A stretch of 64,000 bases of DNA from Brenneria bubanii (GTDB lineage Bacteria > Pseudomonadota > Gammaproteobacteria > Enterobacterales > Enterobacteriaceae). A program made the translations under genes and the position numbers. Positions 7,190-33,376 of this stretch are shown here, one piece after another. Position 1 is the first letter of the stretch. Each line of letters begins with the position of its first letter. The DNA lies in NCBI RefSeq assembly GCF_022378355.1, contig NZ_JAKMAJ010000004.1:186001-250000 (forward strand), read 5' to 3'. Under the pieces are notes generated by a model, which made no database searches, was not told where the DNA came from, and saw nothing but the letters and a program-made list of their open reading frames with translations.

Positions 7190-7212
7190 TGCTGCCGGGC
7201 ATGATGGCTTGC

Positions 7213-8247: not shown

Positions 8248-8275
8248 GCAATGCTGAACCCAATCGACTGCGCGA

Positions 8276-9787: not shown

Positions 9788-10334
9788 ATCTATTCACTCC
9801 ATAATTTAATAAAGCTCTCTTTGCATTTGTCATACGCCGCCATGTAGCCCTGCTGCTTGCTTGAACGTGTCTACCCGCTGTTTTTTCCGTCCGGCGACCG
9901 CTTCCGACTCGTTTTTCGCCCTCTGCCGTCAGGCGCCGCATAACGTTCAACTCATGGTGCGCTACTGACGGCATTATAGATGGCTAATGTTTTATAAAAA
10001 CAAAATTCAGAATAAAAATTCCATTTGTGGGAGGTGGATCAAAAAATGAAATTTCTATTTTTTTGACGAATTTCAGGGAAAACAGGAAATGAGTTTTTTA
10101 TTAAATCCAATTAAAAACAATATCATGTATTTTTATTCATTGCGTTGCGCATATTGAACAGTAGGCTGAGTGCTATTTAAAATAGCCAGCAATATCATTT
10201 AATTATGATCATTATTCGTCGATGGAAGCGCAAGATTGCGTTTTTAATGAAGTTGTTAATTTTAATGTGATTGAAAATGAAATTTTTATTCCTCATAATG
10301 TTTGCAAGCATTTTATCGATGGGGGATGGATATT
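9788..10334. other. Divergent iolA/iolC promoter region
   Basis: Roughly 550 bp with a GC-rich part next to iolA and an AT-rich part from about 9980 to 10320. It contains the composite operator at 10009-10043. No coding gene is recognised. It should hold promoters for both iolA-iolB and iolC. Confidence 0.55.
10009..10043. promoter_or_regulatory. Composite operator between iolA and iolC
   Basis: AGAATAAAAATTCC (10009-10022) deviates from GGAAT-N4-ATTCC by one base. TGGGA-GGTGGA-TCAAA (10028-10043) follows at the same spacing as at 6103-6137. It is the third copy of the island's composite element. Confidence 0.55.
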
Positions 10335-12263
10335 ATGGGTACAGCGCCGCGGCAGAAAACGCTTGACGTCATTTGCATCGGGCGCATCGCGCTCGATTTG
10401 TATGGACAACAAATCGGTTCCCGACTGGAGGATATGAGCTCCTTTGCCAAATATCTGGGCGGATCGTCGGGCAATGTCGCTTATGGCACCGCGGTTCAGG
10501 GGCTTAGGTCCGGTATGCTGTCGCGGGTGGGCGATGAACATATGGGGCGCTTTCTGCGCGAGGAGCTACAGCGCGCCGGCGTGGATACCCGCTGCCTCAT
10601 TACCGATAAACAGCGGCTGACGGCGCTGGTGATTTTAGGCGTGAAGGATCAGGAGACCTTTCCGTTGATTTTCTACCGTGATAACTGCGCGGATATGGCG
10701 CTGAGTCCGCAAGATATCGACGAGGAGTATATCGCCTCCAGCCGGGCGGTGGCCATCACCGGCACCCATCTCTCCCATCCCAATACCCGCGCCGCGGTGA
10801 TCAAAGCGCTGGAATACGCCCGGCGTCATGGCTTGCGTCGGGCGCTGGATATCGATTATCGGCCGGTGCTTTGGGGACTCACCGCGCTTGGCGATGGTGA
10901 AACCCGTTTCATTCCTTCCGAACGGGTTACCCGTGAATTACAGGAGGTGCTGCACCATTTTGACTTGATTGTCGGTACCGAAGAGGAATTTCATATTGCC
11001 GGCGGCAGCACCGATACGCTGACCGCCTTGCGCAATGTCCGTCAGGTGAGTCAGGCAACGCTGGTCTGCAAGCGAGGCGCGCAGGGGTGTTCGGTGTTTG
11101 AAGCGGCGATTCCGGCCGGTTGGGACGAGGTGGCGCTTTACAGCGGCGTCCGGGTGGACGTGCTGAATGTGCTGGGGGCGGGGGATGCCTTTATGTCCGG
11201 TCTGTTGCGCGGCTACCTCAATGATGAAGGATGGGAGCAAGCCTGCCGTTACGCCAATGCCTGCGGCGCGCTGGTGGTATCCCGCCTTGGTTGTGCGCCG
11301 GCGATGCCGACCCGGCTTGAACTGGACGACTACCTGTCGCGTGAGAAATCGGTTCCGCGGCCGGATAAAGATCAGCGGTTGAATCATCTGCACCGCGTGA
11401 CTACCCGCAGGCAGGCATGGCAGGAACTATGCGTGTTTGCATTTGATCATCGTAAACAACTGGTGGATATCGCCCATGCCGCCGGTCGCGATGAGAGCGA
11501 CATTCGCCGACTGAAGCTGTTGCTGCTGCTGGGCGCTCGGGCGGCAGCCGCGGAGGCGGGGTTGAAAAATAACTGCGGTATTCTGGCGGACACGACATTC
11601 GGGCAGGCGGCCCTTAACGATATCACCGGGCAGGGATGGTGGATTGGCCGCCCGATTGAGCAGCCCGCGTCGCGACCGCTACGGCTGGAACATGGCGACA
11701 TCGGTTCGCAACTGGTGAGCTGGCCGCTGGAGCACGTGGTCAAATGCCTGGTGTTTTATCATCCCAGGGACAGCGAGTCGCTGCGGCTGGAACAGGAGGC
11801 GCTAATCGCCGAGGTCTACCATGCCTGCTGTCAGTCCGGCCACGAACTGTTGCTGGAGGTGATCCTGCCGGAGGATAACCCTGACCGGGACGAAAGCTAC
11901 TACGCAGAGATTCTGGCGCGCTTTTATGCATTGGGGATCCTGCCGGATTGGTGGAAGTTACCGCCGTTGTCGGCCGCCGGCTGGCGGGAGATCGGCCAGA
12001 TTATCGAAAACAACGACAGCCACTGCCGCGGCGTGGTGATCCTCGGCTTGGATGCATCGGAAGCCGCCTTGAAAACCGGATTTCTGGCGGCGGCGGATGC
12101 GCCCTGGGTAAAAGGATTCGCCGTGGGCAGAACGATTTTCGGCGAACCGGCCGCAAAGTGGTTCAGAGGCGAGCTGAATGATGAGCAAGTAGCAGAGGCG
12201 GTGAAACAGAATTTCCTCAGACTGATTGGCTATTGGCGTACTTATCGTCCGGCAATCGCTTAA
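10335..12263 (+). CDS. iolC: Bifunctional 5-dehydro-2-deoxygluconokinase / DUF2090 aldolase-like protein
   Basis: A 642-residue fusion. Residues about 1-330 are a PfkB-family sugar kinase: ICIGRIALDLYG near the start, FAKYLGGSSGNVAYGTA, and the catalytic signature NVLGAGDAFMSGLL near residue 284. Residues about 345-642 are a DUF2090 domain beginning near LCVFAFDHRKQL, thought to act as the 2-deoxy-5-keto-gluconate-6-phosphate aldolase that replaces a separate IolJ. Thus two steps sit on one chain, yielding dihydroxyacetone phosphate and malonic semialdehyde. The ATG at 10335 is chosen for its GGGGGA site 8-9 bases upstream; ATG at 10326 or TTG at 10302 in frame are weaker. No separate iolJ was seen in the window. 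Confidence 0.93.
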   Translation: MGTAPRQKTLDVICIGRIALDLYGQQIGSRLEDMSSFAKYLGGSSGNVAYGTAVQGLRSGMLSRVGDEHMGRFLREELQRAGVDTRCLITDKQRLTALVILGVKDQETFPLIFYRDNCADMALSPQDIDEEYIASSRAVAITGTHLSHPNTRAAVIKALEYARRHGLRRALDIDYRPVLWGLTALGDGETRFIPSERVTRELQEVLHHFDLIVGTEEEFHIAGGSTDTLTALRNVRQVSQATLVCKRGAQGCSVFEAAIPAGWDEVALYSGVRVDVLNVLGAGDAFMSGLLRGYLNDEGWEQACRYANACGALVVSRLGCAPAMPTRLELDDYLSREKSVPRPDKDQRLNHLHRVTTRRQAWQELCVFAFDHRKQLVDIAHAAGRDESDIRRLKLLLLLGARAAAAEAGLKNNCGILADTTFGQAALNDITGQGWWIGRPIEQPASRPLRLEHGDIGSQLVSWPLEHVVKCLVFYHPRDSESLRLEQEALIAEVYHACCQSGHELLLEVILPEDNPDRDESYYAEILARFYALGILPDWWKLPPLSAAGWREIGQIIENNDSHCRGVVILGLDASEAALKTGFLAAADAPWVKGFAVGRTIFGEPAAKWFRGELNDEQVAEAVKQNFLRLIGYWRTYRPAIA

Positions 12264-16464: not shown

Positions 16465-16859
16465 TCCCTTTGGGGGATAATGTTTCTGATATTAATATTG
16501 GGCGAGGGTAATAATCGATTAACGAAGAAAATATTGTTTATCTTCGCGACAATTACCCCCTTGGCGTTGGCGATATCATTTGGCGCTCCCCCTGGGGCGC
16601 GCCGCCGGCGACCTTCAACAATCATCTGTTTTTATCCGGTTCAAATATAGATTCAATTAGGGTGTTCACCCTATCAGTCTGACGCATTCAATACTTGCAA
16701 AAATAATTATGATGGCGGTCATTAATTTGATTAATGACCGCTATTAAAAATAATGGATTGACGTATTGGGGGTAAGAAAGCGATAAAAAAATAAATAAGG
16801 CCTTTTTATCGGCGATATACATTGCCGAATATAACCAGGTATTGGTTGAGGAAGCAAAA
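16465..16859. other. Intergenic region after lpxP, with hairpin
   Basis: About 395 bp, AT-rich. It holds a perfect stem with arms GCGGTCATTAAT (16715-16726) and ATTAATGACCGC (16730-16741) around a 3-base loop. A GC-rich imperfect hairpin lies at about 16583-16604. No gene is recognised. The 16715 hairpin could end the lpxP message or act as an operator for the next gene. Confidence 0.45.
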
Positions 16860-18110
16860 ATGTTGCAAGTGAATAGCGAACGTTTATGGAACAGCCTGAT
16901 GGAGATGGCGAAAGTCGGCGCGACGGCCGCCGGGGGAAATACGCGCTTGGCGTTAACCCAGCAAGATAAACAGGGCCGCGAGCTGTTTATACAGTGGTGC
17001 CTCGATGCCGGGATGCGCATTCATTTTGATGCTATCGGTAATTTATTCGCGCGCCGCGAAGGCAAAAATCCTCAGGCCAATCCTATCGTGATTGGCAGCC
17101 ACCTTGATACGCAACCGAAAGGCGGTCGGTTTGACGGCATCTACGGCGTATTGGCGGGATTGGAAGCGATTCGTACCCTTAACGATAAAAATATTATTAC
17201 CGGTCAGCCGCTGGAAATTGCCGTTTGGACCAACGAAGAAGGCGCGAGATTCACGCCGGCGATGTTGGGCTCCGCGGTGTTTACCGGGGCGCTGGCGCTG
17301 GAAAGCGCGTTGGACATCACCGATAGCGACGGGGTCAGCATCCGCCAGTCGCTTAACGACATCGACCATGTCGGCAATACGCCGCTGGCGCGTACGTTTG
17401 ATGCCTACTATGAGGCGCATATCGAACAAGGTCCGGTACTGGAGGAAGAAAACGTGACCATTGGCGTCGTGACGGGCGGGCAGGGGATTTGCTGGCTGGA
17501 TATCGACGTCGCCGGCGTCTCCGCTCATGCCGGTACGACGCCGATGAAGTCCCGCCTCGACCCGCTGTTCGGGGTAGGCGAAATGCTGACATCGCTGGAG
17601 CAATCGCTGCGTAAAGCCTTTCCTGACGGGTTGTTTACCCTCGGACAGATAGCGATACCGGGCTCGTCGCGTAATACCATCCCCAGCCGGGTGAAGTTTA
17701 GCGTGGATTTACGCAATACCGACGATCGGATTCTGGCTGCGATGGAAGCCAGCGTGCGCCAGCAGATAACCGACATTGCCGCGACGCGAGGATTAACGGT
17801 TCAGATTGACCGACATTGGCTAAGCCCCGCCACCTATTTTGACGAAGGGTGCGTCACGACCGTGCGAACCGCGGCGCAGGAGTTGGGGTATTCCTGGCGG
17901 GATATCATCAGCGGGGCGGGCCATGACGCCATTAATATGGCGAAATATTGTCCGACGACCATGGTGTTTATCCCCTGCGCCGGCGGTATCAGCCACAATG
18001 AAAGCGAATCGATATCGCAGGACGATGCGGCCAAAGGATGTGATGTGCTGTTGAATGCACTGTTGTTTCGTTCAGCGCAGTCCCAGGCGCTATCCTGCCA
18101 ATTTCGATGA
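16860..18110 (+). CDS. M20-family Zn-dependent amidohydrolase, N-carbamoyl-L-amino-acid hydrolase type
   Basis: A 416-residue binuclear-metal hydrolase of the group containing N-carbamoyl-L-amino-acid hydrolase, beta-ureidopropionase and allantoate amidohydrolase. Metal and catalytic motifs are visible: IGSHLDTQPKGGRFDG, AVWTNEEGARF, EAHIEQGPVLEEE and SGAGHDAINMA, with VAGVSAHAGTTPM in the dimerisation lid. It hydrolyses N-carbamoyl or amidino-type C-N bonds, releasing ammonia and CO2 in known members. The ATG at 16860 follows GAGGA. It is followed by two hairpins and a 615-bp gap before the next operon, so cotranscription is doubtful. No hydantoinase or allantoinase gene is adjacent, so the substrate is open. 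Confidence 0.85.
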   Translation: MLQVNSERLWNSLMEMAKVGATAAGGNTRLALTQQDKQGRELFIQWCLDAGMRIHFDAIGNLFARREGKNPQANPIVIGSHLDTQPKGGRFDGIYGVLAGLEAIRTLNDKNIITGQPLEIAVWTNEEGARFTPAMLGSAVFTGALALESALDITDSDGVSIRQSLNDIDHVGNTPLARTFDAYYEAHIEQGPVLEEENVTIGVVTGGQGICWLDIDVAGVSAHAGTTPMKSRLDPLFGVGEMLTSLEQSLRKAFPDGLFTLGQIAIPGSSRNTIPSRVKFSVDLRNTDDRILAAMEASVRQQITDIAATRGLTVQIDRHWLSPATYFDEGCVTTVRTAAQELGYSWRDIISGAGHDAINMAKYCPTTMVFIPCAGGISHNESESISQDDAAKGCDVLLNALLFRSAQSQALSCQFR

Positions 18111-18725
18111 TTTTTCGCCTCGCGCCATAGCGGCCGGGCCCACGGTCACGAACGCCGCTGACATCGCGTAACCATAGCGACGCGATGTCAGCGTCCTCCC
18201 GAACATGGGGCGGCGGCGATTGAGCCGCCCCTGTCTATTTATTCTGTTTCCCGTTCTGTCTTGCCTTGTGGCGCTCAATAATACGCCGTTTTTACCTATT
18301 TATTTATTCTCATTGGCTTGTTTACATTCGTTATTTATATGTCGGTAATATTATCAATTTTTATTATTTCATTGTGACTTATTGGTGCAGATACTGCACT
18401 CTGATGGTGTTTTTATTAAAAAGCTGCACTATTTTTGGTTTAAATAATATAAATCAATATTATATGGCGCATTAAATATGTAAAATTGACGCTGGATTGT
18501 GAGTGGGTGAAGAATAGATTACAGACAAGATCTATTTATATTAGCTGCAAGAATTATAAGAAAGGATGTTAATTATTTCGATTTTATCGAATGGGCCGAT
18601 TATCGGAATTTTCATCGCCGCCATCGGTTAACGATGAAATAAGTATTTCTTATTAGCACGAAGGACTGAGCCGTCGTTTTTATTTGTAGCGTATGAAAAG
18701 ATCATTTAACACTTTGGAGCAAATA
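18111..18725. other. Intergenic region upstream of the ThDP-enzyme operon
   Basis: About 615 bp. The first 130 bp contain two strong hairpins. From about 18270 onward it is strongly AT-rich and presumably carries the operon promoter and regulator sites. No gene is recognised. Confidence 0.5.
18156..18231 (+). terminator. Two consecutive stem-loops after the M20 hydrolase gene
   Basis: The first stem has 14-bp arms CGCTGACATCGCGT (18156-18169) and ACGCGATGTCAGCG (18180-18193). The second has GGGGCGGC (18207-18214) and GCCGCCCC (18224-18231), followed by TGTCTATTTATTCTGTTT, a weak T-rich tail. Together they plausibly end the transcript from 16860. Confidence 0.5.
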
Positions 18726-20435
18726 ATGAAAACCCCCTCTCAACCTTCCCGTAATGGCGGTCAGATCTTATTGGAACAACTGCGCGAGCAAGGCGCCAGA
18801 CGAATATTCCTGGTGCCGGGCGAGAGTTTTCTTCCCTGTATTGATGCGTTTAATGAGCATACCGATCAAATTCAGTCGATAGTCTGCCGGCAGGAAGGGG
18901 GCGCGGCCTACATGGCGGAAGCCTACGGCAAAATGACCGGCGAACCGGGCATTTGTATGGTGACGCGTGGGCCGGGCGCGACGAATGCCTCAATTGGCGT
19001 GCATACCGCCTTTCAGGATTCGACCCCCATGATTCTGTTTGTGGGACAGGTGGGGAACAATTTCATCGAACGCGAAGCGTTTCAGGAGATCGATTACCGC
19101 CGCATGTTCGGCCAGATGGCGAAATGGGTGGCGCAGATCGACCGTACCGATCGCATACCCGAATATGTTGCGCGCGCCTACGCGGTGGCCACCAGCGGCC
19201 GCCCTGGACCGGTGGTGCTGGCGTTGCCCGAAGACGTACTGTGGGGCGAGTCGGATGCCGCGGTGGTGTCGGCGCGTCCCCACCTGGATACCTATCCCGG
19301 CGCCGCGCAGATGGCGGAGCTGGAAACGCGCCTGAAGCAGGCGCAGCGTCCTTTCCTGCTGGTGGGCGGCAGCGGCTGGAGCGCTCAGGCTCAGCGGCAG
19401 CTGCAACAGTTCGCCCGCCGTTTTGATTTACCGGTCGGCGTCGCCTGGCGCCGGCTGGAATGCTACGACCAGCGCGACGAGCAGTTTGTCGGCCACGTTG
19501 GGTTCGCGATGCACGACGCTCTGCGTCAGCAATTGCGCGCCAGCGATCTGATTATTGCCGTGGGTACGCGCATCGGCGAGGCCACCAGCGAGGGCTACAG
19601 CTGGATCGCCGCGCCCACCCCAAGTCAAACGCTGATTCATGTCTATCCGGACCCGGAAGAACTGGGGCATGTTTACCGCCCCACGCTGGCGATCAATGCC
19701 AGCGTCAATGCTTTTGCCTCCGCCCTGCAAACATTGTCGCCAGCGATTGAGCCGGTCTGGAAGCCGCAGCGCGCGCAGGCTCGCGATGCCTATCTGACCA
19801 CCCTGAAGCCTTTGCCTTCTCCCGGCGCGCTGAGCCTCGATCGGGTGGCGAATATCGTCGGCGAGGTTCTGGACGGTCAGGGGTGCATCACCGTCGGCGC
19901 CGGCAACTATGCGCTGTACCCGCATCGCTATGTGCCTTTCGCCGGATTGGGCAGCTCTCTGGCGCCGACGGTGGGGTCGATGGGCTACGGGCTGCCGGCC
20001 GCCATCTCCTACAAGCTGGAACATCGCGATCGTCCGGCGGTCTGTTTCGCCGGCGACGGTTGCTTCCAGATGAATATGCAGGAACTGGGCGTCGCGCTGC
20101 AATATCAGCTTGGCATCGTGGTGTTGGTCTTTAACAACGGCATGTGGGGCACCATTCGCGCGCATCAGGAACACCACTTCCCCGCACGCGAGATCGCTTT
20201 ACGCTTTAGTAACCCGACGTTTTCCCGTCTGGCGGATGTTTATGAAGGATGGGGCGTGGTGGTTGACGACACCGACCAGTTCGAAGCGACATTCCGTCAG
20301 GCGCTGCGTTTCGCTGAGGAAAAACGCCGCCCGGTGATCATTGAACTTCGCTATGACGGCGACGGCATCGCGCCCGGCGTGTTGCTGAGCGATATACGGC
20401 AACAGGCGGAAGCCAAACAGGAGGCACAGGCATGA
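18726..20435 (+). CDS. ThDP-dependent enzyme, acetolactate synthase/2-oxoacid decarboxylase-like
   Basis: A 569-residue thiamine-diphosphate enzyme. The N-terminal Pyr domain has GARRIFLVPGESFLPCIDA, the cofactor-activating glutamate in VCRQEGGAAYMAEAYGKM, and VTRGPGATNASIGVHTA. The C-terminal PP domain carries GDGCFQMNMQELGVA running to FNNGMWGTIRAHQE, the GDG-x(26)-NN ThDP motif. Relatives carboligate or decarboxylate 2-oxoacids. Immediate coupling to an aldehyde dehydrogenase (start overlaps this stop) suggests 2-oxoacid decarboxylation to an aldehyde that is then oxidised (inference). The ATG at 18726 follows TTGGAG; an in-frame ATG at 18693 is less supported. The true substrate is unknown. 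Confidence 0.82.
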   Translation: MKTPSQPSRNGGQILLEQLREQGARRIFLVPGESFLPCIDAFNEHTDQIQSIVCRQEGGAAYMAEAYGKMTGEPGICMVTRGPGATNASIGVHTAFQDSTPMILFVGQVGNNFIEREAFQEIDYRRMFGQMAKWVAQIDRTDRIPEYVARAYAVATSGRPGPVVLALPEDVLWGESDAAVVSARPHLDTYPGAAQMAELETRLKQAQRPFLLVGGSGWSAQAQRQLQQFARRFDLPVGVAWRRLECYDQRDEQFVGHVGFAMHDALRQQLRASDLIIAVGTRIGEATSEGYSWIAAPTPSQTLIHVYPDPEELGHVYRPTLAINASVNAFASALQTLSPAIEPVWKPQRAQARDAYLTTLKPLPSPGALSLDRVANIVGEVLDGQGCITVGAGNYALYPHRYVPFAGLGSSLAPTVGSMGYGLPAAISYKLEHRDRPAVCFAGDGCFQMNMQELGVALQYQLGIVVLVFNNGMWGTIRAHQEHHFPAREIALRFSNPTFSRLADVYEGWGVVVDDTDQFEATFRQALRFAEEKRRPVIIELRYDGDGIAPGVLLSDIRQQAEAKQEAQA

Positions 20436-21919
20436 GCGACTATTCCCTGGCGTACTGGCGGCAGGCCGCGCGGCAGCTGAAATATCAGGGGCGGGCCTGG
20501 ATTGGCGCGGGTTACGCCGATGCGGAAAACGGCGCGGTGTTACCCAGCATCAATCCGGCGACGGGCGACAGGCTGGCCGATATCGCCGATTGCAGCGAAG
20601 CCGATGTTGAGCGGGCCGTAGGCCATGCCCGCCGGGCGTTCGACAGCGGCGTCTGGTCGCGCTGCGCGCCTGCCGAACGTCGTAAAACGCTGGAGCGGCT
20701 GGCGCAACTGATGGAAGAAAACAGTGAAACGCTGGCCCTGCTGGAAACGCTGGATATGGGCAAGCCCATCGGCGACAGCATGGCGTTCGACATCCCCGAA
20801 TCCATTCGCTGCCTGCGGTTTTATGCCGGCGCCATCGAAACCGCAACCGATGAAGTGCTGCCTACGCCGCAAGATGTATTGGCCACCGTGGTGCGCGAAC
20901 CGGTTGGCGTCGTGGCGGCGGTGGTGCCCTGGAACTTTCCGCTGATGATTGGCTGCTGGAAACTGGCGCCGGCGCTGGCGGTCGGCAATAGCGTGATAGT
21001 CAAACCGGCGGAGCAGTCCAGCCTCAGCATGTTGAAACTGGCCGAACTGGCTCAGCAAGCGGGGATCCCCGACGGAGTCTTTCAGGTGGTGACCGGCCGG
21101 GGAACGGTCACCGGTCGCGCGCTCGGTCTGCATAATCAGGTGGACTGTCTGGCCTTTACCGGCTCCACCGCGACGGGCAAACATTTCATGCGTTACGCGG
21201 CCGACTCTAATCTGAAGCGCGTCTGGCTGGAATGCGGCGGCAAGTCGCCGCATCTGGTCTTCGCCAACTGTCGGCGTCTGGAACAGGCGGCGGCGGTGGC
21301 GGCGGCGGCCATCTTCATCAATCAGGGCGAGGTATGCATCGCCGGTTCGCGGCTGTACGTGGAAGACGCCATTTATGACCGTTTCCTGGAGCTGCTGCTG
21401 CAGGAAGCGCAGAACTACCTGCCGGGCGATCCGCTGGATCCGCAAACGCGGGTCGGGGCGATGGTCGATAGCGCCCAGTATCAGCGGGTGACCGACGGCA
21501 TTGCCGATGCGCTCAAGGACGGCGCGCGCTGTCTGACGCCAATGCCGGCGCAGGCGGGCGGGCTGTTTCTGAACCCGACCATTCTGGCCTGCGACAACGG
21601 CAATGTCGCCATGCGCCGCGAAATTTTCGGCCCGGTGCTGGGCGTATGCCGCTTCAGCGGCGAAGAACAGGCGCTGGCGCTGGCCAACGACACGGACTAC
21701 GGTTTGGGCGCCGGCATCTGGACTGACGATCTCAGCCAGGCGCACCGCGTTTCCCGCCGCCTGAACTGCGGCATGGTCTGGGTTAACTGTTATGCCGACG
21801 GCGCGATCACCATGCCGTTCGGCGGTCGTAAACAGTCAGGATCCGGCCGGGATAAATCCGTTCATGCGCTGGATAAATACACCGACCCGAAATCAACCTG
21901 GATCCAGCTTTCCCGTTGA
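20432..21919 (+). CDS. NAD(P)-dependent aldehyde dehydrogenase
   Basis: A 495-residue aldehyde dehydrogenase superfamily member. Motifs are AAVVPWNFPLMIGCWKLAPA, VIVKPAEQSSLS, FTGSTATG, the glutamate motif LECGGKSPH, the catalytic cysteine in FINQGEVCIAGSR, and EIFGPVLGVCRF. It is most like the PuuC / broad aldehyde dehydrogenase group. The ATG overlaps the stop of the ThDP gene by four bases (ATGA) and follows AGGAGG, indicating translational coupling. Its likely role is oxidising the aldehyde made by the ThDP enzyme to a carboxylate. Confidence 0.88.
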   Translation: MSDYSLAYWRQAARQLKYQGRAWIGAGYADAENGAVLPSINPATGDRLADIADCSEADVERAVGHARRAFDSGVWSRCAPAERRKTLERLAQLMEENSETLALLETLDMGKPIGDSMAFDIPESIRCLRFYAGAIETATDEVLPTPQDVLATVVREPVGVVAAVVPWNFPLMIGCWKLAPALAVGNSVIVKPAEQSSLSMLKLAELAQQAGIPDGVFQVVTGRGTVTGRALGLHNQVDCLAFTGSTATGKHFMRYAADSNLKRVWLECGGKSPHLVFANCRRLEQAAAVAAAAIFINQGEVCIAGSRLYVEDAIYDRFLELLLQEAQNYLPGDPLDPQTRVGAMVDSAQYQRVTDGIADALKDGARCLTPMPAQAGGLFLNPTILACDNGNVAMRREIFGPVLGVCRFSGEEQALALANDTDYGLGAGIWTDDLSQAHRVSRRLNCGMVWVNCYADGAITMPFGGRKQSGSGRDKSVHALDKYTDPKSTWIQLSR

Positions 21920-21945
21920 ACCGCCACCAAGGGAGGAGAACAGCA

Positions 21946-22578
21946 ATGTCGTTACATCATGATGCACCGACCACATTGATTGAACAGCTATTGCAGGTAG
22001 AAACGGCCACGCTGGGCCACCTGCTCGAACAGGGATTCATGCATCCTCAACTACAGTGCGTACTGCCTGACGCCGTGCGCCGTTGCGGTCCGGCGCTGAC
22101 CGTATCGCTGCCGGAGGACGACGGCTACAGCCTGCCGTTGGCGCTGGCGGCCGCGCGCCCCGGCGATGTGTTGGTGATTGAACGCATCAATGACGATCGC
22201 CACGCCTGCTGGGGCGCGGTAATGACGGCCGCCGCGCAGCAGGCCGGGATTGTCGCCGTAATACTGGATGGCTATATCACCGACCTGTCCGCCATTCGCG
22301 CTGATAATTTTCCCGTCTGGTGTAAAGGACGCTCGCCGCTGACCACCAAACGAGGGAAAAACGGCGGTGCGGTTAACCAGCCGGTGGTTTGCGGCGGGGT
22401 GCAGGTTTGCCCCGGCGATATCGTTCTGGCCGATGAAAACGGCGTCGTCGCATTACCCGCGGCGCAAATGGCGCAGTACGTGGAAGACGCGATCCGCATT
22501 CAGCAGCAGGAACCGCTGATTGTCGAGAAGCTGCGGCAAGGATTGAGTCTGGCCGAAATTTACCGTTATCAACACTGA
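21946..22578 (+). CDS. RraA-fold / HMG-aldolase-like protein with altered arginine site
   Basis: A 210-residue protein of the RraA / 4-hydroxy-4-methyl-2-oxoglutarate aldolase family. The core GAVMTAAAQQAGIVAVILDG and FPVWCKGRSP match the family. Class II pyruvate aldolases of this fold use a DGxxRD motif whose Arg holds the pyruvate carboxylate; here the equivalent is DGYITD, with Thr112 in the Arg position. That makes a standard aldolase activity doubtful. The ATG at 21946 follows GGGAGGAG. Its location between the aldehyde dehydrogenase and the transporter genes suggests a step in the same pathway, perhaps decarboxylation, aldol cleavage of another substrate, or isomerisation. Confidence 0.75.
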   Translation: MSLHHDAPTTLIEQLLQVETATLGHLLEQGFMHPQLQCVLPDAVRRCGPALTVSLPEDDGYSLPLALAAARPGDVLVIERINDDRHACWGAVMTAAAQQAGIVAVILDGYITDLSAIRADNFPVWCKGRSPLTTKRGKNGGAVNQPVVCGGVQVCPGDIVLADENGVVALPAAQMAQYVEDAIRIQQQEPLIVEKLRQGLSLAEIYRYQH

Positions 22579-22610
22579 TATTTTACTCACGCTTTATAGG
22601 GATCATAGAT

Positions 22611-24134
22611 ATGACGCTGAAAAAATCGCTGCTGGCTTCACTGCTTGGTACCACTCTGGCGCTTTCCGCGCTGCACAGCGCGCCTGCGCTGGCCGGAAAG
22701 GCTGATGATACGCTGAACGTGGCGTTTTCCGATGAGCCCGAACCGCTGGACTCCTACAAGATCGCCGGACGACAAGGATTGATCATCGCCCGTCACATCT
22801 ATGACGGCTTGTTATACAAGGATCTGAGCAGCGGGGAAATCAAACCGGCGCTGGCGGAGTCCTGGAAGTTCACCGATGACAAAACCATCGAGTTTGTGTT
22901 GCGCAAAGGGGTTAAATTTCATAATGGCGCCGACTTTAACGCCGACGACGTCGTCACGACGCTGAACACCGTCATCACGCCGGCGTACGGCACCCGTTTT
23001 CAGATATCGGTGGATTGGATCGCCAGCGTGGAAAAAGTGGATGACTATACCGTGCGCATCCATATGGCCAAGCCGTTTGCCGGCGCGGTAGAAATGCTGG
23101 CGGATGCGTTGCCGATCTACCCGCACGCCTACTTTGCCGAGAAAGGTTCGGCGGGCATGGCGGAGCATCCGATCGGCACCGGGCCGTATAAACTGGTCGA
23201 GCAGACGCCGGGCGTACGCTATGTTCTGGAACGTTTCGACCAGCACTATGCCGGGAGTCCGAAAGGCAAACCGGCGATCAGGCGATTGGTGATTCGCACC
23301 ATACCCGAAATGAACACGCAATACGCCGAATTGATGTCCGGCAAGCTGGACTGGATCTGGCGCGTACCGCCGGATCAGGCTAAAAGGCTGGCGGGGCGGG
23401 TGAACATGATCAATGCGCCGATCATGCGTATCGCCTATGTCAGTCTGGCCACGGGTAGCGCGGCTGACACGCCGATTACCCATCCGCTGGTGCGCAAGGC
23501 GATGCTGTATGCGGTAAATCGCCAGCAAATCGCCAAGGTGTTTGGCGGCGAGTCTTCCCAGGTGCTGAATTCCGCCTGTAATCCGCTGCAGTTCGGCTGC
23601 GAGCAGGATGTCGCCACCTACGGATACGATCCGCAAAAAGCGAAAGCCTTGCTGAAAGAAGCCGGTTATCCAAACGGTTTCGATCTGGAAATGGTCTTTT
23701 CCGCCATTCCGCGTCCGGTGGCCGAAGCGGTCTCTTCCGATCTCGCTAAGGTGGGTATTCGCGTCAAACTGAATGAAAACCAGTTCGCGGCGGCGGTGCA
23801 GAAATGGCGCGCCGGCACGCTGCCCGCGCTGATGTCCAACTGGGGCAGCTACGGCATCGGCGACGTGGCCTTCATTCTGTCCAACTACTTCGGCGGCGGC
23901 GATGACGACATGGTCAAAGACGCCGAATTGGCGGCATGGCTTAAAGTGGCGGATACCTCGCCGGATAACGACGTCCGTAAGCAAAACTATAGCCTGGCGC
24001 TGAAAAAGATCGCCGACCAGGCCTATTGGATGCCGCTGTATAATTACAATATCAACTACGGTCTGTCGAAAGATTTGAACTTTACGCCGCAGCCTGATGA
24101 GTTTGCCCGCTGGTGGTTATCGAGCTGGAAGTAA
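22611..24134 (+). CDS. Periplasmic solute-binding protein, Dpp/Opp (SBP_bac_5) family
   Basis: A 507-residue periplasmic binding protein. It has a signal peptide: KK near the start, a hydrophobic stretch, and a probable cleavage after APALA at residue 28. Family 5 landmarks are DEPEPLDSYKIAGRQG, YDGLLYKD, FTDDKTIEFVLRKGVKFHNG and HPIGTGPYKLVE. Members bind peptides, nickel, opines, plant-derived sugars and other small solutes, so the family alone does not identify the ligand. It is followed by two permeases and two ATPases. The ATG at 22611 has AGGGAT upstream. Confidence 0.9.
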   Translation: MTLKKSLLASLLGTTLALSALHSAPALAGKADDTLNVAFSDEPEPLDSYKIAGRQGLIIARHIYDGLLYKDLSSGEIKPALAESWKFTDDKTIEFVLRKGVKFHNGADFNADDVVTTLNTVITPAYGTRFQISVDWIASVEKVDDYTVRIHMAKPFAGAVEMLADALPIYPHAYFAEKGSAGMAEHPIGTGPYKLVEQTPGVRYVLERFDQHYAGSPKGKPAIRRLVIRTIPEMNTQYAELMSGKLDWIWRVPPDQAKRLAGRVNMINAPIMRIAYVSLATGSAADTPITHPLVRKAMLYAVNRQQIAKVFGGESSQVLNSACNPLQFGCEQDVATYGYDPQKAKALLKEAGYPNGFDLEMVFSAIPRPVAEAVSSDLAKVGIRVKLNENQFAAAVQKWRAGTLPALMSNWGSYGIGDVAFILSNYFGGGDDDMVKDAELAAWLKVADTSPDNDVRKQNYSLALKKIADQAYWMPLYNYNINYGLSKDLNFTPQPDEFARWWLSSWK

Positions 24135-24142
24135 TCCTGGTT

Positions 24143-24158
24143 GCCCGCTTCGGCGGGC
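24143..24158 (+). other. UUCG-capped hairpin after the binding-protein gene
   Basis: GCCCGC (24143-24148) and GCGGGC (24153-24158) enclose TTCG, a very stable RNA tetraloop, 8 bp past the stop. No T-run follows. It likely stabilises the binding-protein mRNA and lowers permease expression, as in other ABC importer operons (inference). Confidence 0.6.
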
Positions 24159-24194
24159 ATGCCTCAATTTTCATACTGTAATGAGCGTATCGAC

Positions 24195-25112
24195 ATGCTG
24201 ATATTCGCATTAAAAAGATTGACGGTCGCCGCGCTGGTTGCGCTGGCGGTCTCGGCAATCAGCTTTGCGCTGGCTTATCTGGCCGGTGATCCGGCTATCG
24301 CCATCGCCGGCTCCGGCGCCAGCGCCCGGGATGCTGAACTGGTGCGCCACCTTTACGGTTTCGATCGGCCGCTGCCGGAACAGTATCTGCACTGGGTCGG
24401 CGGCGTCCTGCAAGGCAATCTGGGAAACAGCTACTACTTCAACATGCCGGTCAGCCAGATTATCGGCGAACGTATTCCCGTTACGCTGATGCTTGGCGTC
24501 AGCGCATTTCTGCTGGCGCTGCTTATCGCCATTCCTTTGGGGGTATTGGGCGCGCTGAAGCCGGGCGGCATTATCGACCGGCTGGCGCTGCTGGTGGCCG
24601 TGACCGGGCAGGCCATTCCCAGCTTCTGGCTTGGTTTGATTCTGATCGTGGTCTTTGGCGTCTGGCTGGGCGTGGTGCCCATTTCCGGCGCCGACAGCTG
24701 GCAGGGGTATCTGCTGCCGGTGATTGTGCTGAGCTACTACGCGACGCCCGCGCTGATGCGGCTGATGCGGGCCAGCATGATTGACGTGTTGCAGGCCGAC
24801 TATATCCGCACTGCCCGCTCCAAGGGGATCGGCATGCCGGCGGTTATCATACATCACGCCATGCGCAATGCGATTCTGGCGCTGGTTTCCGTCGCGGCGG
24901 TTCAGCTTGGCATCCTGCTCTCCGGTTCTATCGTCATTGAAAGCGTCTTCGCCCTCAACGGGTTGGGGCGGCTGGCCTGGGAGTCGCTGTTGCGCAGCGA
25001 TTTGCCGGTCGTACAGGGAATCATTCTGATCCTGTCGCTGATTTATGTCGTGCTGACCACGCTGGCCGACCTGATTAATGCCTGGCTTGACCCGCGGATT
25101 AGGGAGTCCTGA
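24195..25112 (+). CDS. ABC transporter permease, DppB-like
   Basis: A 305-residue inner-membrane permease of the binding-protein-dependent peptide/nickel family. The first membrane segment begins ALKRLTVAALVALAVSAISF, followed by a DppB-type periplasmic loop with YGFDRPLPEQYLHW and GNLGNSYYF. The cytoplasmic coupling (EAA-like) loop is DYIRTARSKGIGMPAVIIHHA. Start at 24195 (MLIFALKRL) matches the family; the preceding frame is open back to 24141 but includes the hairpin. It overlaps the next permease by one base. Confidence 0.9.
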   Translation: MLIFALKRLTVAALVALAVSAISFALAYLAGDPAIAIAGSGASARDAELVRHLYGFDRPLPEQYLHWVGGVLQGNLGNSYYFNMPVSQIIGERIPVTLMLGVSAFLLALLIAIPLGVLGALKPGGIIDRLALLVAVTGQAIPSFWLGLILIVVFGVWLGVVPISGADSWQGYLLPVIVLSYYATPALMRLMRASMIDVLQADYIRTARSKGIGMPAVIIHHAMRNAILALVSVAAVQLGILLSGSIVIESVFALNGLGRLAWESLLRSDLPVVQGIILILSLIYVVLTTLADLINAWLDPRIRES

Positions 25113-26005
25113 TGATGTCACCGTTAGATTCTTCGCCGGCGTTGCCGGAAAATACACCCGCCCGCCGCAGCCTAAAGCGTTTTCGCAAAACCGGTATTCT
25201 GGTCGGCGGCGCTATTCTGCTGCTGATGATAGCCATCGCGCTGCTGGCTCCGTGGCTGGCGCCATACGACCCCATCGCTCAGGATCTCGACCATCGGCTG
25301 ATAGAGCCGTTCTGGCAAGCGGCTGAAAACACCGTCCACTGGTTTGGCACCGATCAACTTGGGCGCGATTATTTATCACGTTTGATTTACGGCACCCGCA
25401 TCTCGCTGGGCATTGGTATCGGCGTGGTGATTGTCGCCGGGATTATCGGCACGTCGCTGGGCGTACTGGCGGGATATTTCGGCGGCCGCGTCGATATGCT
25501 GATCAGCTTTTTGATCACCACCCGTCTATCGCTGCCGATCGTGCTGGTCGCGTTGGCGGCGGTAGCCTTGAAAGGCGCCTCCATTATCACGCTGGTGACC
25601 ATTCTGGGGCTGCTGGTATGGGATCAGTTCGCCATCGTCACCCGGGCCAGAACCCAGTCGCTGCGTAACGAAGCCTTTGTGCGCTCGGCGCGAGCTGTGG
25701 GCGCTTCCCACCTGTTTATCATGCTGCGGGAAATTCTGCCGAACCTGCGCAATACCATCATTGTTATCGCCACGCTGGAAGTCGCCAATGTCATTCTGCT
25801 GGAATCGGCGCTCTCCTTTCTGGGGCTGGGCGTCAGGCCGCCTACGCCGTCCTGGGGCTTAATGATCGCCGAGGGGCGCGATAATATTTTGTTTGAATCC
25901 TGGCTGATAGCGCTGCCGGGCGGCGCGCTCTGTCTGTTGGTGCTGGCGGTCAACCTGTTTGGTGACGGTCTGCGCGATGTGATTGGGGCGGAGGTGAAAC
26001 GATGA
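25112..26005 (+). CDS. ABC transporter permease, DppC-like
   Basis: A 297-residue second permease of the same importer. Landmarks are LLAPWLAPYDP in the first periplasmic segment, HWFGTDQLGRDYLSRLIYGTRISLGIG and the EAA-type loop NEAFVRSARAVGASHLFIM. The end LFGDGLRDVIGAEVKR is typical of DppC. Its ATG overlaps the stop of the previous gene; a second ATG follows immediately. It overlaps the next ATPase gene by four bases. Confidence 0.92.
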   Translation: MMSPLDSSPALPENTPARRSLKRFRKTGILVGGAILLLMIAIALLAPWLAPYDPIAQDLDHRLIEPFWQAAENTVHWFGTDQLGRDYLSRLIYGTRISLGIGIGVVIVAGIIGTSLGVLAGYFGGRVDMLISFLITTRLSLPIVLVALAAVALKGASIITLVTILGLLVWDQFAIVTRARTQSLRNEAFVRSARAVGASHLFIMLREILPNLRNTIIVIATLEVANVILLESALSFLGLGVRPPTPSWGLMIAEGRDNILFESWLIALPGGALCLLVLAVNLFGDGLRDVIGAEVKR

Positions 26006-26985
26006 GTAGTGAACCGATACTGACAGTGCGCGATCTCCGCATCGCGATTCCTACCGCGCAGGGGACTTTCCATGTAGTGCGCGGCGTGGATTTCGACCTG
26101 TGCGCTGGGGAGACGCTGTGTCTGGTGGGCGAATCCGGCTGTGGTAAATCGATTACCGCGCTGTCGTTGCTCGGCCTGCAAACCAGCAAAGCGAAAATCA
26201 GCGCGCGGCAGATGCAGTTCCGCGGTCATGCGCTGGATAAGCTGTCGCAGCGGGAACTGAACAGGCTTCGTGGCCGCGATATCTCGATCATTTTTCAGGA
26301 TCCGATGACCACCCTGAACCCGACGCTATCCATTGAAAGACAAATGATCGAAGGCGTGATGCGGCATGAGTCGATTAGCCGCGATAGCGCGCGTCAGCGA
26401 GCGATACAGTTGCTTGAACAGGTGGGCATCCCTCAGCCGGCCGAACGGATTCGCCAGTATCCGCATCAATTTTCCGGCGGCCAGCGTCAGCGCATCATCA
26501 TCGCGATGGCGCTGATGGGAAAACCGTCGCTGCTGATTGCCGATGAGCCAACCACGGCGCTGGACGTCACCATCCAGGCGCAGATTCTGACCTTGATTCG
26601 CGAGCTGGCGCAACAGTTGAACTTCGCTCTGCTGCTGATTACCCACGATTTCGGCGTGGTGGCGGCAATGGCGGATAACGTGAGCGTGATGTACGCCGGG
26701 CGCATCGTCGAATCCGCGCCGGTGGAAGCATTGCTGCAACGGGCGCAGCATCCCTATACCCGCGGGCTGATCGCCAGCATTCCCATTCCGGGGAAAACGC
26801 CGCCCGGCTCCGACCTGCCGGTTATTGATGGCCGGGTGCCGGAACTCTTAGGCGAGATGACGGGATGCGCGTTCCGTTGGCGCTGCGCCTGGCGGCAGCC
26901 CATTTGCCAGCAAACAGTGCCGCTCCAGCAAAATGGACCGGAACATCGCTACGAGTGTGTGCGATCCTCGGAGGAGCAGTCATGA
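26002..26985 (+). CDS. ABC transporter ATPase, DppD-like
   Basis: A 327-residue nucleotide-binding subunit. Walker A is VGESGCGKSITALS, the signature is FSGGQRQRIIIAMAL and Walker B is LLIADEPTTALDVTIQAQ. The C-terminal oligopeptide/dipeptide extension has the Fe-S-like cysteine pattern seen in many DppD proteins (GCAFRWRCAWRQPIC). The gene overlaps its neighbours by four bases on each side. Confidence 0.93.
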   Translation: MSSEPILTVRDLRIAIPTAQGTFHVVRGVDFDLCAGETLCLVGESGCGKSITALSLLGLQTSKAKISARQMQFRGHALDKLSQRELNRLRGRDISIIFQDPMTTLNPTLSIERQMIEGVMRHESISRDSARQRAIQLLEQVGIPQPAERIRQYPHQFSGGQRQRIIIAMALMGKPSLLIADEPTTALDVTIQAQILTLIRELAQQLNFALLLITHDFGVVAAMADNVSVMYAGRIVESAPVEALLQRAQHPYTRGLIASIPIPGKTPPGSDLPVIDGRVPELLGEMTGCAFRWRCAWRQPICQQTVPLQQNGPEHRYECVRSSEEQS

Positions 26986-27797
26986 ATCATGATACGGAAC
27001 AGGAACCGCTGTTACAGGTTAACGGGGTCAGTCAGTCGTTCAGCCTCGGCGGCGGTCTGTTGAAGCCCGCCAGACGGATACAGGCGCTGGATAACGTGTC
27101 GTTGACGTTGCAGGCGGGGGAAACGCTCGGGCTGGTGGGCGAATCCGGCTGTGGTAAAAGTACGCTGGCGAATATTATTCTCGGTCTGAACCGGCCGGAG
27201 CGCGGCGACGTGCTGCTGAGCGGTAAGCCTATTGGCGAAATGGAACGTCTGGCCCGCGCCAGTCTGCTGCAGCCGGTCTTTCAGGATCCCTATTCGTCGC
27301 TGAATCCGGCCTACACCATTTATGAGACGGTATTACAGCCGCTGAAAGTTCATTGGCGCGGCGGCGACTGGCGGCGCGAGGTATTGGACATGCTGGATCG
27401 CGTCGGCTTTCCCAGCCGGCTGGCTAACGCCTATCCGGGCGAATTGTCCGGCGGGCAGCGGCAGCGGGTGGCGATCGCCCGGGCGCTGATTCTGAATCCC
27501 GCGGCGCTGATTTGCGACGAACCGACCAGCGCGCTGGATGTTTCCGTTCAGGCGCAAATCATCAATCTGCTGCTGTCGCTGAAGCGCGAGTTCAATCTGG
27601 CGATGGTGTTTATCAGCCATAATCTGGCGGTGGTGGAACACCTGTCGGATCGCGTCTGCGTGATGTATCAGGGCAAGGTGGTGGAGCAGGGCGATTGCGC
27701 GTCGATCTTCGCCAATCCGCGCCATGATTATACCCGAAAACTGCTGGCGGCCACGTTGCTGCCGCAGAGCAACACCCGTCTGATGGCGTTGGACTGA
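26982..27797 (+). CDS. ABC transporter ATPase, DppF-like
   Basis: A 271-residue second nucleotide-binding subunit. Walker A VGESGCGKSTLANIILGL, signature LSGGQRQRVAIARAL and Walker B ALICDEPTSALDVSVQAQ are intact. The ATG at 26982 follows GGAGGAG and overlaps the DppD-like stop (ATGA). It completes a five-gene importer and is the last gene of the operon. Its stop is two bases from the convergent LysR stop. Confidence 0.92.
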   Translation: MNHDTEQEPLLQVNGVSQSFSLGGGLLKPARRIQALDNVSLTLQAGETLGLVGESGCGKSTLANIILGLNRPERGDVLLSGKPIGEMERLARASLLQPVFQDPYSSLNPAYTIYETVLQPLKVHWRGGDWRREVLDMLDRVGFPSRLANAYPGELSGGQRQRVAIARALILNPAALICDEPTSALDVSVQAQIINLLLSLKREFNLAMVFISHNLAVVEHLSDRVCVMYQGKVVEQGDCASIFANPRHDYTRKLLAATLLPQSNTRLMALD

Positions 27798-27799
27798 CG

Positions 27800-28723
27800 T
27801 CAATAGCCCGCCAGATGCAGCGCCTCCAGCAGGCGCTCGAAGAAGGCTTCCTCGGCTTGATTATATTTGGGCTCCTGGTTCCACATCAGATGCAGCGTGA
27901 TGCGCGCAAGGCCGTCATAAGGGGGCAGTTTCCATAAATGCCCCGCGTCCGCCTCCATTTTCACCACGTGTTCGGGCAATGCGCCGATCCCCAGTCCGGC
28001 GCGGATCATGCGCCGGACTTCGTCGAGACTGGCGCTGGTGCCGATAATCCGTCCTTCCAGCGTCTGTTGCGCCCGGAATAGCGCCAGCGGCGCCAGTACG
28101 CCGTCTAGCTGTTCGCTGGCGAAAGAGACGAAGTCTTCATTATGCAGATCGTCAATTTGTAGATGCTGGTGTCCGAATAGCGGATGACGCTTGCCGCAGT
28201 AAAGAAAGTATTTTTGATGCAGCAGCGGCGTATCGCAGAGTCCCGGTACGGTTTTATGCTTTAAACAGATCCCCAGACCAGATTGATAATGCAGCAGGGC
28301 ATCCTGCACATCGGCGCTTGAACCCGAGCTAATCTCGAAATTGACGCGCGGATGGTTTTGATGAAAATCAGCCATGGCGTTATCCAGAATGTCGCTGTTG
28401 ACGCCGGAAACCAATGCCAGACGTATCACGCCGCTCAGATCGTTAGGGGTATTCTGCACCGCCATCGACAGCCGGGCGATACTGCCGTAAATCGCCAGGG
28501 CTTCACGATAAACCAATTCGCCGGCCGACGTCAGATTGAACGTCGCGCCGTTACGGGCGATCAGATTTTCATCAAGACGATCTTCCAACCTCTTCAGCGC
28601 CAGACTGACCGCCGGCTGAGTCAGGTGTAGCCGGGTTGCCGCCCGGCTGATGCTGCCTTCCTGCACAATAGCAAGAAAAGTACGCAACAGGTTCCAGTCA
28701 AGTCGGTCGTGAATATGGGACAT
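27800..28723 (-). CDS. LysR-type transcriptional regulator
   Basis: A 307-residue LysR regulator. The N-terminal winged helix-turn-helix has NLLRTFLAIVQEGSISRAATRLHLTQPAVSLALKRLE at residues about 11-47. A periplasmic-binding-protein-like effector domain fills residues about 95-300, with FVSFASEQLDGVLAP and MIRAGLGIGALPEHV. Family members bind a pathway metabolite and usually activate. It is convergent with the preceding importer operon rather than divergent from a target. The obvious candidate regulon is the operon at 18726-27797, but this is only positional inference. Confidence 0.88.
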   Translation of the reverse strand: MSHIHDRLDWNLLRTFLAIVQEGSISRAATRLHLTQPAVSLALKRLEDRLDENLIARNGATFNLTSAGELVYREALAIYGSIARLSMAVQNTPNDLSGVIRLALVSGVNSDILDNAMADFHQNHPRVNFEISSGSSADVQDALLHYQSGLGICLKHKTVPGLCDTPLLHQKYFLYCGKRHPLFGHQHLQIDDLHNEDFVSFASEQLDGVLAPLALFRAQQTLEGRIIGTSASLDEVRRMIRAGLGIGALPEHVVKMEADAGHLWKLPPYDGLARITLHLMWNQEPKYNQAEEAFFERLLEALHLAGY

Positions 28724-29367: not shown

Positions 29368-29612
29368 CTATGCTTGTAGTCTTGATTGCCGCTTTATTTT
29401 CTTAACGACGTCAAACGATATCAAGTCATGCTGATTAGGAAATAATGAGTTGATTAATAATAAATTGAAGAGATTTCATTGTTCTTTTTTACCCTCTCTC
29501 TGGTGATAAAAAACAAGACATTTCTTTATTCTTTCTCTCTTTCGCCTTTTTCAGCATGTTAATCGCGGATAGCGATATTTTTAGGCATTTTCCCGAGCTA
29601 GATGAGGTCAAT

Positions 29613-30827
29613 ATGCAACAACCAAGTGCGGTAACCCGTGAGGATTTTAACCAACGGATGGTGCCGGTATATGCCCCTGCCGATTTCATTCTGACGCGCG
29701 GCGAGGGTTCCCGGATCTGGGATCAACAAGGGAAAGAGTACATTGATTTTGCCGGCGGCATCGCGGTTAATGCGTTGGGCCATTGTCATCCGGACGTCAT
29801 GGCGGCGCTAACCGAACAGGCGGGCAAGCTGTGGCATATCGGTAATGGCTACACCAATGAACCGGTGCTGCGCCTGGCGAAACAATTGATTGACGCCACC
29901 TTCGCCGACAAAGTGTTTTTCTGCAATTCCGGCGCGGAAGCGAACGAGGCCGCGTTGAAGCTGGCTCGTAAATATGCCCACGACAGCGGCACGCCCGATA
30001 AAAACCGCATTGTGGCGTTCAAGAATGCGTTTCATGGCCGTACGCTGTTTACCGTCACCACCGGCGGACAACCCAAATATTCAAAAGATTTCGCGCCATT
30101 GCCGGGCGCAATCGACCATCTTCCCTATAACGATCTGGCGGCTGCGCAGGCGGCGATTGACCAACATACCTGTGCCGTGATTGTCGAGCCGATTCAGGGC
30201 GAAGGCGGCATTATCCCGGCCGATCCGGCATTTTTGCAAGGCCTGCGCCAGCTGTGCGACCGCCACGGCGCGCTGTTGATATTTGATGAAGTGCAAACCG
30301 GCGTTGGCCGCATCGGGTCGCTTTATGCCTATATGCAGTATGAAGTGACGCCTGATGTACTGACCACCGCCAAAGCGCTGGGCTGCGGTTTCCCGATCGC
30401 CGCCATGTTGACTACCGATACGCTTGCCGGCGCTTTTTCCGTCGGCTCGCACGGCACCACCTATGGCGGTAATCCGCTGGCGACGGCGGTGGCCAGCACG
30501 GTATTCAGTCTGATCAATACGCCGGCCGTACTGTCCGGGGTGCAACAACGCCATCGGCTGTTTATCGATAGTCTGAATAAAATCAACGACAAATATCGCC
30601 TCTTTGCCGATATTCGCGGCGCGGGTCTGCTGATTGGCTGCGAGATGGCCCCGGCCTATGCGGGCAAAGCCAAGCAACTGACGCAGTTGGCGAGCAAGGA
30701 AGGGCTGATCGCATTGATTGCCGGACCGGATGTGGTGCGTTTCGCCCCTTCGCTGATCATTCCCGAAAGCGATATTGAACAGGGCATGCAGCGGTTTTCT
30801 CGGGCGATTGAACAGTTCCTCGCTTAA
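29613..30827 (+). CDS. astC: Succinylornithine transaminase
   Basis: AstC transfers the amino group of N2-succinylornithine to 2-oxoglutarate, the third step of the arginine succinyltransferase pathway. The 404-residue PLP class-III aminotransferase has [65 protein letters not shown] and the PLP-lysine segment [11 protein letters not shown]. Resemblance to E. coli AstC is close along the length. The ATG at 29613 ([12 protein letters not shown]) is chosen for GATGAGG upstream and the family start; an in-frame ATG at 29556 would add 19 residues. It is first in the ast operon, 30 bp before astA. Confidence 0.95.
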
Positions 30828-30857
30828 TGCGATGAACAGACAGAGGTTGATATTACC

Positions 30858-33376
<2,519 letters not shown>

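Follow-up and report, generated by a model that had tools for sequence, protein, structure and literature searches.

A candidate ThDP enzyme, aldehyde dehydrogenase and M20 amidohydrolase pathway with exchangeable importers in Brenneria bubanii

Organization of the locus

The stretch of Brenneria bubanii DNA considered here, called the window below, comprises 64,000 nucleotides (contig NZ_JAKMAJ010000004.1, positions 186,001 to 250,000). Its positions 18726-27797 are occupied by eight genes following one another on the + strand, with spacing from -4 bp (start/stop overlap) to ~60 bp. The first gene (18726..20435) codes for a thiamine diphosphate (ThDP)-dependent enzyme of the NF006052/PRK08199 subfamily, a proposed 2-oxoacid decarboxylase; its start is backed by homologues starting at about the same place. 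It is followed by the genes of a PuuC-like aldehyde dehydrogenase (ALDH, 20432..21919) and of an RraA-fold protein (21946..22578, PF03737), whose open reading frame has a further TTG upstream at 21916. The remaining five genes form a complete Dpp/Opp-type importer: a family 5 solute-binding protein (SBP, 22611..24134; PF00496, 278 bits), permeases B (24195..25112; PF00528 and PF19300) and C (25112..26005; PF00528 and PF12911), and ATPases D (26002..26985; PF00005 and PF08352) and F (26982..27797; PF00005 and a weak oligo_HPY match). A convergent gene on the - strand (27800..28723; PF00126 and PF03466) encodes a LysR-family regulator. The gene of an M20 amidohydrolase of the hydantoinase/carbamoylase family (16842..18110; TIGR01879), N-carbamoylase-like and a putative pathway member, lies on the same strand as the operon and ends 615 bp upstream of the start at 18726.

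The family assignments of all eight operon products and of LysR are confirmed by Pfam and NCBIfam. Together with the coordinates they bear out the first-pass annotation, which had described eight tightly coupled genes in this order and a convergent lysR gene. That this operon exists and is no chance arrangement follows from the gene order and protein identity common to three congeners. The earlier view that it is a single uptake-and-catabolism unit is supported.

Genes accompanying the ThDP enzyme in other genomes

The neighbourhood of the ThDP gene was compared at 45 core loci, whose ThDP protein is ~54% identical or more, and at 78 control loci of the wider ThDP family. The core loci (a first set of 15 and an added set of 30) come from a genome scan, a plasmid search and a family search centred on the Bordetella locus L018. 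The genome-scan loci are the best 80 of at least 589 confirmed relatives. The L018-family search gave matches at E<=1e-245 in 62 of 268 genomes, with G617 and G628 matching only at sister-clade scores; 32 stretches were taken from 32 of these genomes, the sister-clade copy being used for L187 and L188. Not counted as core were L186 and L187, which are of the sister clade (54%), and L188 (52%). L172 and L189 (duplicates of L017 and L021) were dropped, as were L001, L102 and L126, which are the window again, and the longer stretch L119, from the window's family, took the place of L009. Among the 45 core ThDP proteins no pair is identical over a 380-residue stretch. Identity limits for partners were chosen by the analyst (first/added set: ALDH 38/42%, GabT 40/42%, CitE 40/38%). 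The resulting counts are descriptive, as the loci are interrelated and their contigs unequal in length, 6 of the 78 control loci being shorter than 10 kb.

M20 accompanies ThDP at 41/45 core loci (13/15 of the first set, L119 and 27/30 of the added set) vs 0/78 controls; L119 was counted with only the C-terminal end of its M20 gene on the contig. ALDH is likewise found at 41/45 core loci vs 7/78 controls. The other partners are less constant: a CitE-like lyase (24 of the 45), the family 5 SBP of Dpp type (21), a tripartite ATP-independent periplasmic (TRAP) transporter (20), an acetylpolyamine-amidohydrolase-like gene (10, with one further partial match in L175 left uncounted), RraA (9, thus an accessory gene) and an MHS-type MFS transporter (5). 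GabT is near six core loci and none of the 78 controls, accompanied by succinate-semialdehyde dehydrogenase in L014 and L021. Two layouts are common in beta-proteobacteria, namely GntR-TRAP-CitE-ThDP-M20-ALDH and GntR-ThDP-M20-ALDH-Dpp-cupin, the latter with the amidohydrolase next in some cases.

Depending on the locus, the importer is of Dpp, TRAP, MHS-type MFS, UrtA-like ABC or Lys/Arg/Orn-type ABC type. As the ThDP-M20-ALDH trio recurs with these different importers, the trio is the hub and the importer is interchangeable, so that the substrate cannot be deduced from the Dpp importer alone. The window importer has all five subunits in common with Dpp/Opp/Nik-type ABC importers and differs in being exchanged between loci; homologues of its SBP occur at 48-50% identity in L015 and L017. 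The search for the gene set and its extra partners in other genomes, which the first-pass annotation had suggested, recovers the ThDP-ALDH-M20 trio and adds TRAP and CitE-like partners; the Dpp importer and RraA are not constant. The N-carbamoylase gene that this annotation had placed upstream is indeed present at 16842-18110. Judged by its occurrence at 41 of 45 loci, it is a core pathway member and not a mere neighbour.

Several loci contain further genes close to the hub. In L013 the ThDP gene lies beside DAO, RidA and a Lys/Arg/Orn-type SBP. The SBPs of L012, on a plasmid, are closest to the urea-binding UrtA family and stay below its cut-offs. A GhrA-like gene adjoins the ThDP gene in L021, L180 and L183, and homologues of 2-hydroxyacid dehydrogenases (GhrA, D-lactate and tartrate dehydrogenase) are present at some loci. 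Five core loci (L022, L023, L024, L184 and L185) carry APH-family kinase-like and PRK06148-type class III aminotransferase-like genes, which may point to a hydroxylated variant of the substrate. The sister clade (L186-L188) has a cluster of LysR, HyuA, HyuB, ThDP, Pyr_redox/BFD and DAO genes, a second uncharacterised unit.

Besides the enteric-like genus of the window, core units occur in Burkholderiales, in some Alphaproteobacteria (Microvirga, Bosea) and on a Klebsiella plasmid. Within the window's genus 4 of 10 genomes have the core ThDP gene. Among 148 other sampled genomes of the window's family it occurs at core level in one (G064, 80%), a single distant match reaching 43%; a class sample of 368 other genomes contains none at core score, and in 5,426 E. 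coli genomes no place covers 80% of ThDP-ALDH-RraA. The Klebsiella copy (L012, K. pneumoniae plasmid p1) has an IS1 transposase gene and predicted arsenic-resistance genes in its vicinity, and the plasmid is typed as conjugative.

Families and motif residues of the hub enzymes

The top model for the ThDP protein is NF006052 (799 bits, cut-off 539), a model without defined function. The earlier assignment to enzymes of 2-oxoacid type is supported. The protein misses the cut-offs of the acetolactate synthase large subunit (TIGR00118, 321 vs 538 bits) and of 5-guanidino-2-oxopentanoate decarboxylase (NF005712, 227 vs 500 bits). Its Glu, presumably catalytic, and the residues of the GDG/NN motif are kept in 45/45 core loci at four positions.

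The M20 protein exceeds the cut-off of TIGR01879 (410 vs 204 bits), and its relatives in the PDB include L-carbamoylases, beta-ureidopropionases and allantoate or ureidoglycolate hydrolases. The motif residues H, D, E, E, H and H, which we take to be zinc-binding and catalytic, are intact at each of the six positions in 39/39 proteins examined (L119, partial at the contig end, and L024, below the identity limit, are left out). The window protein has both sequence family and motif residues in common with these hydrolases; its setting beside ThDP and ALDH genes differs.

The best model for the ALDH is PuuC (NF007352) with 626 bits, under the cut-off of 850; the ALDH of L013 also scores best against PuuC, whose substrate we take to be N-acylated 4-aminobutyraldehyde. 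Cys, Glu and Asn, assumed to be the catalytic residues, are kept at three positions in 38/38 proteins examined, L022-L024 being left out as below the identity limit.

Congeners and the reduced version in the window

In three congeners (L130-L132) the order of genes is M20, dctPQM (TRAP), CitE-like lyase, ThDP, ALDH, RraA, Dpp importer and convergent lysR. Identity between window and congener proteins is 87-94% from ThDP through ATPase F; the exceptions are RraA (83-89%), LysR (85-89%) and M20 (78-82%). The window version is devoid of four congener genes, the TRAP genes dctPQM and the CitE-like lyase gene between M20 and ThDP. In the alignment, window positions 18447-18490 correspond to the dctP promoter and 18697-18760 to the ThDP start, and ~206 bp between them (18491..18696) are unalignable and stand in place of dctPQM and the citE-like gene. 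The simplest explanation would be a deletion of the TRAP and lyase genes in the window lineage, because the TRAP-CitE-ThDP arrangement is shared by many beta-proteobacteria. The difference could instead stem from repeated loss or from a gain by the congeners, and the Klebsiella plasmid copy and L119, which have the palindrome described below close to ThDP without TRAP, are in line with this.

Probable regulation by LysR

A palindrome GTGCA-N5-TGCAC at 18385..18399 follows the T-N11-A rule for LysR operators and is the probable operator of this LysR. It is exact in 5 of 6 loci with a lysR orthologue: as a single copy upstream of ThDP in the window, L119 and L012, and before dctP in L130 and L131. 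In L132 it is degenerate at the same place, with two mismatches, individually at chance level. Duplicates aside, it is absent from the other loci of the first sets, and among the later-added loci it is exact only in L130, L131 and L126 (the window again). Exact matches are expected in the window ~0.06 times (64000 / 4^10). Downstream, a TGCA half-site (18425..18428) is found in 6/6 aligned promoters at a conserved distance. The lysR orthologue is present in all six palindrome loci, at 73-75% identity in L119 and L012 and at 85-89%, at the operon end, in L130-L132. Because palindrome and half-site are conserved in loci with the lysR orthologue, the role of LysR as a direct regulator acting via the palindrome at 18385 is well supported at the sequence level, and so is the first-pass suggestion of LysR as the probable regulator.

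Proposed pathway

The gene set and its recurrence, the motif residues, the conserved palindrome and the missing TRAP and lyase genes of the window are direct observations. The substrate, every reaction, the entry modules, the function of the RraA-fold protein and the control exerted by LysR at the palindrome are inferred. The substrate would be a 2-oxo acid with an amide-blocked, most likely N-carbamoylated, amine on its side chain. The ThDP enzyme would decarboxylate this blocked 2-oxo acid to an aldehyde, ALDH would oxidise this aldehyde, and from the resulting omega-N-acylamino acid the M20 amidohydrolase would strip the carbamoyl or acyl group to leave a free omega-amino acid, in the simplest case 4-aminobutyrate (GABA). 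GABA would then pass through gabT and gabD, sited elsewhere in the window genome. The leading specific guess is a citrulline-type route (2-oxo-5-ureidopentanoate to 4-ureidobutanal, 4-ureidobutyrate and GABA), since 2-oxo-5-ureidopentanoate is the simplest substrate using all three hub enzymes and ending in GABA. We give the scheme as a whole a probability of roughly 0.4. The substrate could be supplied by different entry modules in different bacteria, namely TRAP with the CitE-like lyase, Dpp, a UrtA-like ABC importer, an amino-acid ABC importer with DAO/RidA, or an MHS-type MFS transporter with RraA; in the window Dpp would be the sole remaining module, and LysR would control the operon.

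Several observations are consistent with this scheme, beginning with the association of M20 and ALDH with the ThDP gene (each 41/45 core loci) and the carbamoylases and beta-ureidopropionases among the PDB relatives of M20. The PuuC-like ALDHs of the window and L013, GabT at six core loci and a gabT gene in the window's own genome suggest an omega-amino acid as the product. This gabT has 64% identity (C3, L100 754-11115) and is followed by a gene read by eye as gabD; the pair adjoins genes of a GabR-like regulator, a polyamine-type ABC transporter and a kinase-like protein (also named by eye). DAO/RidA and the Lys/Arg/Orn-type SBP of L013, as well as the HyuA/HyuB, Pyr_redox/BFD and DAO genes of the sister clade, suggest a deamination upstream. 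The UrtA-like SBPs of L012, below cut-offs as they are, suggest a urea-like group in the substrate. That the solute gives rise to a 2-oxoacid is suggested by neighbouring genes, at some loci, for deamination and for the oxidation of 2-hydroxyacids. A precedent is the ThDP enzyme IlvB1 of S. meliloti, which acts as a decarboxylase on 5-amino- and 5-guanidino-2-oxopentanoate within a network that ends in GABA (PMC7268258).

A number of points weigh against this scheme. GabT is found in 6/15 loci of the first set and 0/30 of the added one, and the same holds for DAO (1/45; 1/15 and 0/30) and RidA (3/45; 3/15 and 0/30). The ThDP gene is kept without M20 and ALDH in L168, L176 and L190 and without M20 in L023. 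The ALDHs are not one tight family: the best model is phenylacetaldehyde dehydrogenase in L012 and betaine-aldehyde dehydrogenase in L022, and these two proteins share just 33-42% identity with the window ALDH. The ThDP enzyme scores the acetolactate synthase model above the 5-guanidino-2-oxopentanoate decarboxylase model (321 vs 227 bits), and genes for an aminotransferase, an oxidase or RidA are missing from the window operon. Finally, the CitE-like lyase (24/45), the acetylpolyamine-amidohydrolase-like gene (10/45) and RraA (9/45) are not readily accommodated by a plain citrulline route. Apart from the operon, the window genome has a histone-deacetylase-family amidohydrolase (C7:80263-81189, L101; 224 bits) by a permease-like gene.

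Alternative explanations

The M20 enzyme might act first, cleaving an amide formed from a hydroxy acid and either beta-alanine or GABA (a pantothenate-like compound); GabT would take the amino acid, the CitE-like lyase, ThDP enzyme and ALDH would degrade the hydroxy-acid half, and TRAP would import the free hydroxy acid. The best PDB matches of the congener TRAP SBP, 4pdd and 4nq8, which we take to hold erythronate and pantoate, would fit such a substrate, as would the GhrA, D-lactate and tartrate dehydrogenase homologues at some loci. Pantoate or erythronate is bound in several structures of related TRAP SBPs, the passages at hand leaving 4pdd and 4nq8 unnamed (PMC11668362). However, M20 belongs to a subfamily of carbamoylase type, the amino-acid-type ABC importer and DAO/RidA of L013 do not fit, and the window and the Dpp-type beta-proteobacterial loci lack both lyase and TRAP, so that we consider this order of reactions unlikely. 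It is also conceivable that the ThDP enzyme is a carboligase or C-C hydrolase, which joins or cleaves a small 2-oxoacid (pyruvate, glyoxylate) released by the lyase. The higher score with acetolactate synthase than with the 5-guanidino-2-oxopentanoate decarboxylase and the GhrA-like gene beside ThDP in L021, L180 and L183 speak for it; the missed acetolactate synthase cut-off, the best match to NF006052 and the lack of an acetolactate synthase small subunit among the operon genes (by Pfam) speak against it, as does the ALDH at 41/45 loci, which is expected if the ThDP product is an aldehyde. We regard such an activity as improbable. Acetolactate synthesis itself was set aside because of the missed TIGR00118 cut-off, and so was pyrimidine or allantoin degradation, which M20 and RidA would fit and ThDP would not.

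The RraA-fold protein, described in the first-pass annotation as a third enzyme, does belong to this fold family; it proved to be accessory, with the aldolase arginine replaced. Aligned with the HMG/CHA (4-hydroxy-4-methyl-2-oxoglutarate/4-carboxy-4-hydroxy-2-oxoadipate) aldolase of P. putida (3noj), it has Thr in place of the catalytic, enolate-stabilising Arg-123 and Ala in place of Asp-102, which we take to have a role in the aldolase as well. Both replacements occur in 9/9 RraA-fold homologues, the window included, and all nine keep Asp at the position of the metal ligand Asp-124. The protein also misses the aldolase cut-offs (NF006731, 111 vs 179 bits; TIGR02798, 98 vs 305 bits). In the P. 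putida aldolase the activity of R123A is below detection and the kcat of R123K is decreased 181-fold (PMC5065237). With both residues replaced in all nine homologues and Arg-123 mutants inactive or weak, the protein is probably not an ordinary pyruvate aldolase. Thus, despite the shared fold family and metal-binding Asp, it is very improbable that the protein is a normal enzyme of HMG/CHA type (class II pyruvate aldolase or oxaloacetate decarboxylase) whose retro-aldol reaction delivers the 2-oxoacid; an aldolase feeding the ThDP enzyme was set aside for the missing Arg-123. RraA-family proteins with other chemistry exist, such as FlDet, a dehydratase/decarboxylase (PMC8563752).

Neighbouring genes

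The window also contains inositol catabolism genes at 3998-12263, coding for IolD (943 bits), an ALDH of methylmalonate-semialdehyde dehydrogenase type and a bifunctional 5-dehydro-2-deoxygluconokinase/aldolase. Downstream of lysR an ast operon (arginine succinyltransferase) begins at 29556-31892 with an AstC-type transaminase and AstA. No match (45% identity, half length) to window astC, astA, astD or the genes at 14147 and 15514 was found in the congener stretches, which extend only ~1-3.5 kb past the operon and in which iol genes were not searched for. With no match in these stretches, the genes neighbouring the operon were set aside as pathway partners.

Comparison with known routes

In the arginine transaminase/dehydrogenase route of Pseudomonas the enzymes are AruH, AruI, KauB, GbuA and GabT. 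The pathway proposed here resembles this type of route in the ThDP-dependent decarboxylation of a 5-substituted 2-oxopentanoate, oxidation by ALDH, release of the blocked amine and the use of GabT; in S. meliloti the arginine route is the AspC/IlvB1 network (PMC7268258). The differences concern the release of the amine, which is performed by a ureohydrolase in the arginine route and would fall to the M20 amidohydrolase beside ThDP in the window, and the decarboxylase, which belongs to NF005712 in the former and to NF006052, with a Dpp or TRAP importer attached, in the latter. Pfam detected no amidino-releasing ureohydrolase in the window operon, to which this search was confined. The titles and abstract openings of the open-access literature, a scope outside which most subscription papers fall, yielded no paper on this gene set or on a bacterial 4-ureidobutyrate route; within the same scope the statement of the first-pass annotation that the gene combination matches no known pathway holds, and its interpretation as a whole is partly supported.

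Taken with all its parts, the claim would be an undescribed pathway in which a ThDP/ALDH/M20 hub breaks ureido or acylamino 2-oxoacids of citrulline type down to GABA, with interchangeable importers and entry modules and an RraA member of arginine-independent chemistry. In this complete form it is tentative and rather unlikely. If right, it would be a ureido/acylamino acid route in which a carbamoylase replaces the ureohydrolase of arginine degradation, it would provide a function for the unnamed NF006052 subfamily of ThDP enzymes, and the RraA-fold protein would represent a branch of this fold with so far uncharacterised chemistry. That one copy sits on a Klebsiella plasmid typed as conjugative points to movement of the trait between genera.

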